Positions 5,836 to 8,598 of a DNA stretch of 8,943 nucleotides are shown piece by piece; within the stretch, counting starts at the first letter, position 1; each line of letters starts with the position of its first letter. The notes under the pieces are model-generated. The model was not told the origin of the DNA. It did not search any database and saw only the letters and a list, made by a program, of their open reading frames with translations. Position numbers and translations under genes: made by a program. Source of the DNA: Deltaproteobacteria bacterium (GTDB taxonomy: Bacteria; Desulfobacterota_B; Binatia; UBA9968); assembly GCA_016193385.1 (NCBI GenBank), contig JACPSF010000467.1, forward strand, positions 1 through 8,943. Direction: 5' to 3'.

Positions 5836-6345
5836 GTGAAGCAAACAATAGGCTATTCCAAGTATAAGGTGTTGCTCAAGGCCTTTATCAACTCACTCCA
5901 GGAGACCTTGGGGGATCAAGTAGTATCCGTTGTCCTCTATGGATCGGTGGCACGGGGGAAAGCCAGACCTGATAGCGATGTGGATTTGCTTCTCATCCTG
6001 CGGGACGCGCCTGCCGCGTATTGGAAACGGCTCCAGTCACTTCTTCCGATCCTCCGGCGGTTACGGGAGGAGCCGTGCTGGCAGGAGTTGCAAAGGGAAG
6101 GGGTGACTCCGTTCCTCAGCTTGCTTGTGCTCTCGTTGGAAGAAGCCAGGGAAAATCGGTATCTCTACCTGGACATGATCGAGGAGGCAAGGATCCTCGT
6201 GGATCGGGACGGTTTTTTCCAGGACAAATTGCACAGCCTGCAACAAAGGTTAAAGGAGTTGGGCGCGAAGAAGATTCGGAGGAATGGAGACTGGTACTGG
6301 GACCTCAAGCCGGACCTGAAGTTGGGGGACGAGGTTATTTTGTGA
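5836..6345 (+). CDS. MNT-type nucleotidyltransferase (partner of downstream HEPN)
   Basis: This 169-residue protein has the minimal nucleotidyltransferase core: VVLYGSVARGKARPDSDVDLL (32-52) carries the GS-x10-DxD motif, with Ser37 and Asp48/Asp50 as nucleotide- and metal-binding residues. I see no clear third acidic residue on the strand after residue 90 (TPFLSLLVLS). The C-terminal segment ELGAKKIRRNGDWYWDLKPD (136-155) looks like the tail of a HEPN-linked subgroup. It starts with GTG 30 bp after wzm, with no strong ribosome-binding site. Its stop overlaps the HEPN start as GTGA, indicating coupled translation. MNT/HEPN pairs are often toxin-antitoxin modules in which the MNT enzyme modifies and silences the HEPN RNase. 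Whether this pair works that way is uncertain. It has no evident role in polysaccharide export. Confidence 0.85.
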   Translation: MKQTIGYSKYKVLLKAFINSLQETLGDQVVSVVLYGSVARGKARPDSDVDLLLILRDAPAAYWKRLQSLLPILRRLREEPCWQELQREGVTPFLSLLVLSLEEARENRYLYLDMIEEARILVDRDGFFQDKLHSLQQRLKELGAKKIRRNGDWYWDLKPDLKLGDEVIL

Positions 6346-6758
6346 AGAGCATGCGAGAGGAGGGGCTTCGGCTGATTCGGGAGGTGGAGGGCATCCTCAG
6401 GCGCGACGCCCGGGGAGCCTTGACCGATAAGGATTTCAACCTGGTTGTGCGGCGCGCCCAAGAGGTTGTGGAATTAGCCCTAAAAGGCGCCTTGAAGATG
6501 CTCGGAGTAGATTACCCCAAAGTTCATGATGTGGCTCCTCTGTTTTCTGATCGACTGCGCCAGAAAAAAGGGGTAGGTGACCCCACAGTTCTTCAGAAGA
6601 TTGAGGAAGCTTCTTTATGGCTTGCCCAGTCGAGGGCACCATCATTTTACTTTGATCGCGAGTACGGAGAAGAGGACGCAGAGCAAGCTCTTAAGGACGC
6701 TGCCTTTGTATTAAATGAGGTCAAGGAGCTTTTAGGTCTTAGTCGTAAAGAGCCGTAA
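6342..6758 (+). CDS. HEPN-domain protein
   Basis: This 138-residue all-helical protein is counted from the GTG at 6342; a start at the ATG 6351 would give 135 residues. AQEVVELALKGALKMLGVDYPKVHDVAPLF (39-68) fits the HEPN family (PF05168 type), with the characteristic central Glu-Leu-Ala-Leu-Lys helix and the His-Asp pair at 62-63. The catalytic Rx4-6H motif of RNase-active HEPN toxins is not seen: no Arg lies four to six residues before His62. The protein may therefore be a non-nucleolytic HEPN that binds ligand or partner, as in the MNT/HEPN class related to kanamycin nucleotidyltransferase. The GTGA overlap with the MNT gene argues that both act as one complex. The stop is followed after 3 bp by the first heptad-repeat array. 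Confidence 0.82.
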   Translation: MKSMREEGLRLIREVEGILRRDARGALTDKDFNLVVRRAQEVVELALKGALKMLGVDYPKVHDVAPLFSDRLRQKKGVGDPTVLQKIEEASLWLAQSRAPSFYFDREYGEEDAEQALKDAAFVLNEVKELLGLSRKEP

Positions 6759-6761
6759 TTT

Positions 6762-6803
6762 CGGATTGCGAATTGCGGAAGGCGAATGTCGAAATTCGAA
6801 AAG
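6762..6803 (-). repeat. Heptanucleotide repeat array 1 (inverted relative to arrays 2 and 3)
   Basis: Six consecutive 7-bp units keep strict phase: CGGATTG, CGAATTG, CGGAAGG, CGAATGT, CGAAATT, CGAAAAG. Each begins CGR. Read on the minus strand they become units such as CAATTCG, ACATTCG and AATTTCG, the same family as arrays 2 and 3. The array starts 3 bp after the HEPN stop and ends 12 bp before the ATG of the four-helix-bundle gene. Confidence 0.85.
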
Positions 6804-6815
6804 TAACATTCAGCA

Positions 6816-7187
6816 ATGGAAAGACAGGATCTCGAGAAACGGACCAAGGATTTTGCATTAAGGCTCATACGGTTTATAGGGAGCCTGCCTAAAAACAACG
6901 TAACGGCTGTCGTGGGCTATCAGTTGTTGAAGTCGGGAACCTCGATAGGTGCCAACTATCGTGAGGCAAACCGAGCAGAGTCGCATGACGATTTTATCCA
7001 TAAGATTGGTATTGTAGAAAAGGAAGCCAGCGAATCACAGTATTGGCTTGAACTCATCGAAGAGGCGGACATCGGGGACAAAGAGGAACGTGCCTGGTTG
7101 ATGGGGGAGTCTAGCGAATTGGTTGCGATATTTACTGCCATGGGCAGAACGGCGAAGTCGCGCCGTGTGGCAAAACGACGAATTTAA
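6816..7187 (+). CDS. Four-helix bundle protein, 23S rRNA intervening-sequence (S23/IVP) family
   Basis: This 123-residue protein matches the short four-helix-bundle family first found in 23S rRNA intervening sequences: KDFALRLIRFIGSLPKNNVTAVVGYQLLKSGTS (11-43), the highly conserved SIGANYREANRAES (43-56) and KIGIVEKEASESQYWLELIEEADI (63-86). The length is normal for the family and the C-terminus is basic (KSRRVAKRRI). The molecular role of the family is not established; binding to structured RNA has been proposed. No Shine-Dalgarno sequence is visible before the ATG. The gene is enclosed by inverted heptad-repeat arrays, unlike any other gene in the window, and probably came in as a unit with them. 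It has no obvious tie to polysaccharide synthesis. Confidence 0.88.
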   Translation: MERQDLEKRTKDFALRLIRFIGSLPKNNVTAVVGYQLLKSGTSIGANYREANRAESHDDFIHKIGIVEKEASESQYWLELIEEADIGDKEERAWLMGESSELVAIFTAMGRTAKSRRVAKRRI

Positions 7188-7202
7188 ACGTCTGGTTGCC
7201 AA

Positions 7203-7236
7203 ATTCGATATTCGCAATTCGCTTTTCGCAATTGTT
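7203..7236 (+). repeat. Heptanucleotide repeat array 2, abutting the wzt start
   Basis: The units ATTCGAT, ATTCGCA, ATTCGCT and TTTCGCA follow in strict 7-bp phase (7203-7230), then a degenerate ATTGTT reaches the wzt ATG at 7237. It begins 15 bp after the stop of the four-helix-bundle gene and is in inverted orientation relative to array 1. It occupies the place where a wzt ribosome-binding site would be expected. Confidence 0.82.
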
Positions 7237-8598
7237 ATGTCTGACCTTGCCATTCGCGTTGCAGGATTGGGTAAGCGTTATCGCATCGGTCAGCGGGAGC
7301 CCTACTCTACGCTCCGCGATGTGTTGGCTCACTCTTTCGCTGCCCCGTTCCGCTACTTGAGGCAAATTTCGAATTTCGAATTTCGAAATGCGAATTTGGC
7401 CGATCCGCAACCTGCGCTTCTCAATTCGCCATCCGCAATCCCCAATCCGCAATCCGAGTACATCTGGGCTCTCAAGGACGCGTCTTTCGAGATCAAGAGG
7501 GGAGAGGTCGTTGGGATTATAGGCCGAAACGGCGCCGGAAAGAGCACGCTCCTCAAGATCCTATCTCGAATTACGGCTCCGACTGAGGGTGAGGCTGACG
7601 TCTTTGGTCGGGTGGGGTCGCTCCTGGAAGTGGGCACGGGCTTCCACCCGGAGCTTACCGGTCGCGAGAACGTCTATCTTAACGGCGCTATCCTCGGGAT
7701 GAAGAAGGCAGAGATTGACCGCAAGTTTGACGAGATCGTGGCGTTTGCCGAAGTGGAGAAATTCCTTGACACACCAGTCAAGCATTATTCCAGCGGCATG
7801 TATACACGCTTAGCCTTTGCTATAGCGGCTCATCTGGAACCGGAGATTTTGCTGGTAGATGAAGTGCTGGCGGTGGGGGATGCCGCTTTTCAAAGGAGGT
7901 GCCTAGGTAAGATGGGTGATATTGCGGCAGAAGGCCGAACAGTACTCTTCGTGAGCCATAACATGGTAGCGGTCGAGCATCTCTGTAAGAGGGTCATTCT
8001 TTTTGAGGACGGTAGGATACGGCTCGATGCAGCTCCCCAAGCAGCCGTTGCGGAATACCTAGCTAGTTTCTCAGCACCGGCCGATGGCCACGGCTTGGTA
8101 TCAGTTCGGCGGGATCTCGGCCTCTTGCCGGTAATCCAAAAGCTTGAGTTCCAGGACTGCTGTGGACGTCCGGTCATTGCAGTGCCGACTGGCGCTCCGC
8201 TGACGGTGCGCATCCATTACAGACATACCGAGCCGATCAGGGATCCTTACTTTGGCCTCGTCTTTGAGACCGCCATGGGAGTGAAGGTGTTTTGGGTTCA
8301 GACTCGCTTGCAGAAGGGGACTCTGCCTGACTTGCCCTCTTCTGGCCTTATCGAATGCCATATCCCGCGCGTTCCATTGGTTCCCGGACTTTACTTTGTG
8401 CAACCGGGTTGTGGTTCTGGTACAACGCAGTTGGATCTAGTCCCGCGTGCGTGTCAGTTGCAGGTCGCGGAAACCGATGTGTTCGGCACCGGGCGTGCGC
8501 CACACCAGTCTTCAGGCCTCGTTATAGTTGATGCCGAGTGGAACGTCGTCCCGGGAGGGCGGGAGGAGCTGTTGAGTAAGGCAGACCTTGCCGAATGA
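7237..8598 (+). CDS. wzt: Polysaccharide ABC exporter ATPase with C-terminal glycan-binding domain (Wzt)
   Basis: This 453-residue ATPase is the long Wzt form. The N-terminus SDLAIRVAGLGKRYRIGQREPYSTLRDVL is typical for the family. Walker A GRNGAGKST lies at 96-104, the VGSLLEVGTGFHPELTGREN segment at about 126-145, the degenerate signature YSSGM at 184-188, Walker B ILLVDE at 204-209 with LAVGD following, and the switch His at 241 (SHN). Residues from about 290 to 436 form a beta-rich C-terminal domain that in long Wzt proteins binds the terminal glycan modification, so export is coupled to chain capping. Residues about 43-75 are a repeat-encoded insert between the N-terminal strand and WALKDASFEI. 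The start at 7237 is chosen on homology; the in-frame extension to 7123 overlaps the preceding gene. Its partner is Wzm, 1.4 kb upstream. Confidence 0.93.
   Translation: MSDLAIRVAGLGKRYRIGQREPYSTLRDVLAHSFAAPFRYLRQISNFEFRNANLADPQPALLNSPSAIPNPQSEYIWALKDASFEIKRGEVVGIIGRNGAGKSTLLKILSRITAPTEGEADVFGRVGSLLEVGTGFHPELTGRENVYLNGAILGMKKAEIDRKFDEIVAFAEVEKFLDTPVKHYSSGMYTRLAFAIAAHLEPEILLVDEVLAVGDAAFQRRCLGKMGDIAAEGRTVLFVSHNMVAVEHLCKRVILFEDGRIRLDAAPQAAVAEYLASFSAPADGHGLVSVRRDLGLLPVIQKLEFQDCCGRPVIAVPTGAPLTVRIHYRHTEPIRDPYFGLVFETAMGVKVFWVQTRLQKGTLPDLPSSGLIECHIPRVPLVPGLYFVQPGCGSGTTQLDLVPRACQLQVAETDVFGTGRAPHQSSGLVIVDAEWNVVPGGREELLSKADLAE
7365..7458 (+). repeat. Heptanucleotide repeat array 3, inside the wzt reading frame
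   Basis: AATTTCG is repeated three times (7365-7385), followed by AAATGCG and AATTTGG, then more degenerate units, and finally ATCCGCA, ATCCCCA, ATCCGCA and ATCCGAG (7431-7458). The 7-bp phase holds across the whole stretch. Three units make 21 bp, so the translation has a seven-residue period, visible as ISNFEFRN and SAIPNPQSE. Orientation is the same as array 2. The reading frame of Wzt remains open through it. Confidence 0.85.

Follow-up and report, generated by a model that had tools for sequence, protein, structure and literature searches.

A four-helix-bundle gene of the 23S rRNA intervening-sequence protein (S23) type, bracketed by inverted arrays of a tandem seven-letter repeat, is a real and general pattern that recurs in several bacterial phyla. 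The joint coming and going of the gene and its repeats points to an overlooked kind of mobile DNA. Probably the gene, together with the arm on either side, makes up a single small mobile unit whose protein acts on its own heptad ends and which has gene-less derivatives. As judged from comparison of genomes and plasmids, this reading would account for the matched arms, the change of protein and arms together, their joint presence and absence, the cognate arrays scattered in most genomes with a cognate gene, and the replacement of target sequence on plasmids.

The window, which is the whole stretch of 8,943 nucleotides that was analysed, is a polysaccharide gene cluster. It comprises an ABC-2 permease, a nucleotidyltransferase ORF, a HEPN ORF, a small gene, and an ABC ATPase with a Wzt C-terminal domain. 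The small gene and the arrays of the window are the following:

6757 to 6801, forward strand: upstream arm, a degenerate heptad array of the GGATTGC/GAATTGC type, G-rich on the coding strand (TRF, repeat search, lag-7 scan)
6816 to 7187, forward strand: four-helix-bundle (23S rRNA IVP / S23) gene of 123 amino acids (PF05635, TIGR02436, PDB 2rld)
7198 to 7233, reverse strand: downstream arm, an inverted heptad array with an inverted match to the upstream arm, score 19 (repeat searches, lag-7 scan)
7358 to 7402, forward strand: leading array of the inverted pair that lies within wzt and has no gene (TRF, repeat search, lag-7 scan)
7414 to 7462, reverse strand: second array of this pair, also within wzt (repeat search, lag-7 scan)

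The product of 6816-7187 is a member of PF05635 (E 6.4e-16, 58.9 bits, curated cut-off 33.8) and of TIGR02436 (E 3e-22, 78.9 bits, cut-off 24), and it matched PDB 2rld by sequence (E 1.8e-18). PF05635 was the sole domain match of the gene, and no transposase gene was identified within the window unit. By the lag-7 scan, which put the arrays at 6758-6801 (forward) and 7199-7233 (inverted), the gene lies 14 bp from the array on the upstream side and 11 bp from the array on the downstream side. The stop codon of the HEPN ORF (6756-6758) marks the start of the upstream array, and a gap of 3 bp separates the end of the downstream array from a likely wzt ATG at 7237. The arms were 71% complementary across 38 nt (6757-6794 and 7196-7233). 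First-order Markov versions of the window contained no arrays in 20 tries. The sequence-only reading had described heptad arrays of the same family, in opposite orientation, on either side of an S23-type gene, and the lag-7 scan and the Markov controls confirmed that description. The Rfam search of the window returned no matches reaching threshold, and the tRNA search returned nothing. The nucleotidyltransferase and HEPN ORFs (5836-6758), which are toxin-antitoxin-like together, adjoin the unit upstream within the polysaccharide cluster.

Both gene-less arrays (7358-7402 and 7414-7462) lie within a stretch read as the Wzt linker (ISNFEFRNANLADPQPALLNSPSAIPNPQS); the earlier reading was silent on this pair. 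Linkers like that of the window Wzt were flagged by a rough motif in 7 of 120 homologues. Other Wzt homologues are without such a linker, for example P0124 and P0132, which have 20 residues between the anchors.

Twelve genomes encoding relatives of the window protein gave 105 TIGR02436 matches, of which 71 near full-length copies were used (68 in the random-placement test and 69 in the permutation test). In the 80 bp before and after the gene, letter repetition at lags 7, 14 and 21 was 0.39-0.40, 0.37-0.38 and 0.35, respectively, across the 71 copies, compared with 0.23-0.29 approximately 600 bp from the gene. A strict detector identified an upstream array in 33 of the 71 copies, a downstream array in 30, and both in 22. 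Nineteen of the copies with both arrays matched better inverted and three better directly, two of these three having arrays in both orientations. An inverted score of at least 16 was reached by 49 of 68 copies; when placements were drawn at random within those regions, 3 of 426 did so. The repeat sequence varied from locus to locus, and the two sides of one locus were usually matched. The mean inverted score of a copy's own pair was 19.1, the maximum under within-genome permutation was 13.2, and none of 10,000 permutations was as good; a copy's own flank was its best partner in 40 of 69 cases. Direct flank similarity was also above permutation (11.1 versus 9.0).

The sample was then widened with genomes from three phyla, those to which an acidobacterial, a Bacteroidota and a Chloroflexota genome belong, with about 30 loci per phylum taken among the matches listed. 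A gene match was present in 31 of 60 Acidobacteriota, 45 of 61 Bacteroidota and 20 of 61 Chloroflexota genomes. With these added to the first set there were 160 unique copies, of which 154 had enough flank, and the arm threshold was set at a score of at least 16. At this threshold inverted arms were observed in 112 of the 154 copies and not in the remaining 42, and direct similarity was observed in 21 of the 154. Random cross-locus flank pairs reached the threshold in 1.2% of 4,000. The check proposed earlier, whether arrays flank four-helix genes more than other genes, came out in favour: inverted arms were found at 112 of 154 gene copies versus 2 of 391 control ORFs, which were taken within these loci at a distance of over 450 bp from the gene. 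Simple replication slippage would place heptads in spacers and leave the inverted match to chance or shared base composition, and heptamers are over-represented among bacterial simple repeats according to the available text of PMC4692102. The within-genome permutation and the control ORFs speak against slippage and weigh heavily, and we regard it as extremely unlikely.

The repeat unit in the 112 armed copies was 7 letters long in 81, 8 in 23, 9 in 2, 6 in 2 and 10 in 1, and was unclear in 3. On the coding strand, the upstream arm was G-rich (G > C) in 100 of the 112 loci and C-rich in 10. A scan of 61 regions for inverted array pairs was not clean, as some pairs on its 'gene-less' list contain a gene copy, and no conclusion is drawn from it; that list showed no clear polarity (12 G-first, 9 C-first), unlike the arms of gene-bearing copies. 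In one inverted pair (L269, 3812-4165), two distinct heptad types are joined end to end within an arm.

Arms and protein covary. Within the set of 112 armed copies, arms were shared in 34 of the 37 pairs whose proteins are at least 60% identical (permuted maximum 5 of 37 in 2,000 tries), in 12% of 129 pairs at 50-60% identity, and in 91 of 5,939 pairs below 50%; the pairs mix paralogues and orthologues and are not independent, and 111 pairs with no identity value were dropped. From this covariation we infer that the protein probably recognises its own heptad arms. As natural protein-repeat pairs change together, such recognition is directly testable. Ten genome loci encode proteins 54-74% identical to the window protein, and window-type arrays were present nearby in six (L001, L003, L004, L005, L008 and L010; Chloroflexota, Planctomycetota, Acidobacteriota and Bacteroidota) and absent in four (L002, L006, L007 and L009). 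At L002 (Stahlbacteria), which encodes a relative with 74% identity, the flanks score 22 direct and 10 inverted.

Arrays of the window type are also dispersed through genomes. A pattern of three units of the window-type heptad was searched for in 71 genomes, where one array yields several hits. Between 44 and 233 hits were obtained in 9 of the 71, and the reversed control pattern gave 0-2. At least 10 array hits were present in 12 of 14 genomes with a protein of at least 50% identity versus 4 of 57 without (Fisher p 1e-8), a limit that was chosen after the data were seen, with two of the 14 gene-bearing genomes counted by partial matches. The exceptions were the four genomes with such hits and no homologue of at least 50% identity, among them G021 with 179 array hits, and two of the 14 genomes with a homologue, which had 3 and 0 hits. 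As G001-G012 had been picked for encoding a relative of the window protein, the remaining 59 genomes (G013-G071) were also considered alone, and at least 10 array hits were present in 4 of 4 with the gene versus 4 of 55 without. The matches listed include forward-then-reverse array pairs approximately 90-110 bp apart, start to start (for example G005 C5:2127/2234, C100:31155/31253 and C122:8923/9012), and one pair in reverse order (C166:992/1252).

Genome content also bears on whether the unit could be a passenger moved in trans, either by a reverse transcriptase (RT), as Avd works with the RT of diversity-generating retroelements (DGRs), or by a Y1/HUH transposase, as proposed for REPs. PF05635 resembles the DGR accessory protein Avd, which works with a reverse transcriptase and template/variable repeats (PMC10053308, available text), and RT hits were obtained in 14 of 31 gene-bearing versus 7 of 29 other Acidobacteriota genomes (p 0.11). 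However, 17 of the 31 gene-bearing genomes had no RT hit, including G005, G037, G051 and G070 with 58-233 array hits, and no Y1 transposase hit was obtained in G003, G008 and G023 with 33-95 array hits; genome completeness was not given, and these absences count weakly. A domain scan of nine window proteins gave no RT, and thus no RT gene beside the Avd-like gene. We consider a passenger very unlikely. A need for an RT or a Y1 transposase in trans is not supported, albeit weakly, by the genome presence data.

In one Bacteroidota genus (8 genomes), three loci differ in the gene-plus-arms block. Locus 1 (arm score 20) was filled in G109, G125, G195 and G097, and the gene and the arms were both missing in G193 and G194. 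In G192, locus 1 carries a different four-helix gene with the left arm nearly unchanged (L182 compared with L126). Locus 2, with weak arms (score 12), was filled in G097, G195, G192 and G193, and the block was absent in G109, G125, G194 and G196. Locus 3 (arm score 30) was filled in G125 and G109 and empty in G097. The comparison of loci with and without the unit, as proposed earlier, thus shows gene and arms missing together at related loci, with the reservation that the arms of locus 2 are weak. The comparison at locus 3 contained four indels, of which only B is a whole four-helix unit; C lies within an apparent four-helix gene, and A and D are other sequence. At the empty sites the spacer is unlike the filled sequence, and inspection of the Bacteroidota indels by eye revealed no target duplication, so recombination of whole regions is possible at these loci, where each difference may be a gain or a loss. 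A different hairpin, with arms of approximately 17 bp, was noted by eye in the same spacer of a unit-free site (L183, G194).

Paralogues occupy unrelated sites (three in G010, two in G004), and the sequence they have in common starts at an array. The homology ends at the other array in G004, and is ragged among further arrays in G010.

Plasmids were searched by tblastn, giving 25 records, and 17 loci were taken in. The inverted score was at least 17 in 16 of the 17 loci and at least 29 in 8 of the 17, compared with 0 of 119 same-locus controls at 17 or more. Cross-locus pairs reached 17 in 30 of 272 cases because several cyanobacterial units share a heptad. Plasmid pC052_C carries an intact DNA cytosine methyltransferase gene, which the unit splits on the Nostoc plasmids pNPM1 and pNsp_c. 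Approximately 328 bp are replaced by a 466-bp unit, with the left junction at a CAATTCG that pre-existed in the target. On pC052_A, a 431-bp unit replaces 197 bp that are retained by five other plasmids. The flanks of this unit were 91% and 99.7% identical to those of pC052_D, and the unequal identity indicates that the Nostoc C052 plasmids are mosaics. In Nostoc sp. TCL26-01, a unit of approximately 589 bp between cas2 and cas1 replaces approximately 64 bp, nearly all of it from the end of cas1; in Nostoc sp. UHCC 0870, cas2 and cas1 are 2 bp apart. No target duplication was seen by eye at the three plasmid sites; with flank identities of 81-99.7%, a short duplication could have escaped notice.

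The plasmid insertions and the paralogues also bear on whether the arrays are regulatory sites, the four-helix protein being a DNA-binding or nucleoid protein, the arms autoregulatory and the spread of pairs incidental. Arms are at the gene ends in 112 of 154 copies, as autoregulation would have it, and paired tandem 7-8-mers of Geobacter metallireducens were read as putative sites of a global regulator (PMC2700814, available text). However, autoregulation would have no need of a matched inverted array past the stop codon, and it leaves unexplained both the units that replace parts of other genes and the homology of paralogues from array to array. A regulatory role as the whole explanation is therefore unlikely.

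A further explanation is an RNA cassette, in which the arms let the transcript fold as a long stem around the gene, for RNase III processing or mRNA stability. In the RNA structure predicted for 6745-7250 the array regions are paired with each other (MFE -157.5 kcal/mol, z -2.13, with 1 of 100 shuffles as good), as the sequence-only reading had suggested they could be, and the intervening sequence (IVS) of Coxiella carries a terminal stem of 28 bp that RNase III cuts in vitro (PMC4990558, available text). The mismatches between arms, however, when taken as pairs of the sense-strand RNA, were G.U in 166, A.C in 173 and other in 391 cases; as G.U is about equal to A.C, there is no sign of selection for transcript pairing. 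Moreover, a stem needs neither tandem heptads nor dispersed cognate arrays. We consider the RNA cassette improbable. The earlier suggestion of a mobile or RNA-structured cassette was thus supported for dispersal, by the flanking excess, the joint absence, the paralogues that share sequence from array to array and the polarised insertions, and was not supported for RNA pairing, for which the wobble counts gave no sign of selection.

With the mobile-unit reading, the unit would be approximately 0.45-0.6 kb in length and consist of a tandem-heptad arm, the four-helix-bundle gene and an inverted copy of the arm. The protein, a relative of Avd, would recognise the heptad arms of its own unit, possibly in the form of a folded single strand, and deliver them to a target. 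No nuclease or polymerase domain is known for the four-helix protein, nor any domain that explains movement, and the copying and joining of the DNA would fall to replication or repair enzymes of the host, at one site by way of a heptad-like sequence that the target had before. The pair in wzt and other gene-less pairs would be a non-autonomous form, and the 23S rRNA intervening sequences would represent such units after insertion into rRNA.

The intervening sequences do look like relatives of the heptad units. The Coxiella rRNA IVS is 428 nt long and has complementary ends, with two or three GACAGAT heptamers and a degenerate one directly upstream of the S23p ORF, their number being strain-dependent (PMC4990558, available text). 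The IVS and the units described here thus share a protein family of the same name, complementary ends and tandem heptamers upstream of the ORF, and these heptamers strengthen the link to rRNA intervening sequences drawn in the earlier reading (PMC4990558, available text). The window gene, likewise, is an S23p ORF between complementary ends. However, it lies between the HEPN ORF and wzt rather than inside a 23S rRNA gene. Intervening sequences reside in rRNA helices and are excised from RNA, whereas the units reside in protein-coding operons and genes. The units further differ in having matched heptad arms on both sides in most copies, locus-specific repeats and dispersed cognate arrays.

REPtrons and REPINs (RAYT or TnpA-REP) resemble the units in that a gene stands beside cognate repeats, many repeats occur elsewhere, and protein and repeat are cognate (PMC8266576, available text). 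REPs, however, are palindromes processed by a HuH protein, the gene of which is mostly single copy, with no evidence of its own mobility in that text (PMC8266576). The units have a four-helix bundle protein, tandem-heptad ends and a multicopy gene. The window gene matches PF05635 only and encodes no Y1/HUH transposase; inverted cognate repeats border the gene in the window and in relatives, and dispersed copies were seen only in the genomes of relatives.

Tandem 7-8-mers, often in inverted pairs and mostly intergenic but sometimes intragenic, have been described as GGGAATC arrays in Xanthomonas, GGGGA(C/T)T arrays in Nostoc and the sites of Geobacter metallireducens (PMC4692102 and PMC2700814, available texts), and resemble the arrays here. 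In Xanthomonas campestris, 186 GGGAATC repeat patterns were reported, with 70 cases of two convergent sites, generally apart from mobile elements (PMC4692102, available text). The terms S23 and four helix are absent from the main texts of both papers, and xcc0516 is absent from that of PMC4692102, so neither main text names the link proposed here. A tie between free-standing four-helix-bundle genes and heptad arrays was not found in the open PMC literature, which excludes most subscription journals and all preprints.

More tentatively, and at somewhat less than an even chance, these cases may form a class of mobile DNA whose ends are set by a period (tandem 7-mers, sometimes 8 or 9) and not by one sequence. 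Each nuclease-free four-helix lineage would read its own heptad, and insertion would replace the target and not duplicate it. The rRNA intervening sequences, the cyanobacterial and Xanthomonas heptamers and the paired Geobacter sites would be members or derivatives. If true, this bears on why heptamers are over-represented among bacterial tandem repeats and on the origin of rRNA intervening sequences and their S23 protein, and a large gene family (at least 7,996 relatives scored) gains a testable role. The operons in which units occur include those for cas2-cas1, restriction-modification and polysaccharide export, and the gene-less pair would supply a linker of Wzt.

Several minor observations were made on the plasmid units. 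Units lie within or beside defence operons at L274, L276, L285 and L289 (drmD, hsdS-hsdR, a DNA methyltransferase, and DUF1156 with a HEPN protein). On plasmids of Nostoc sp. TCL26-01 and Anabaena cylindrica, the interval between cas2 and cas1 contains a four-helix gene that runs on the opposite strand (L280, 1120-2876, and L281, 1030-3121). The annotated cas1 of TCL26-01 is 972 bp long, compared with 1,044 bp in the unit-free relative. Plasmids of Dolichospermum and of Tolypothrix PCC 7601, a strain in which cyanobacterial heptamer repeats were first described, match at several listed places the heptad TAATTCG, which is that of the units in Nostoc C052 and Dolichospermum.
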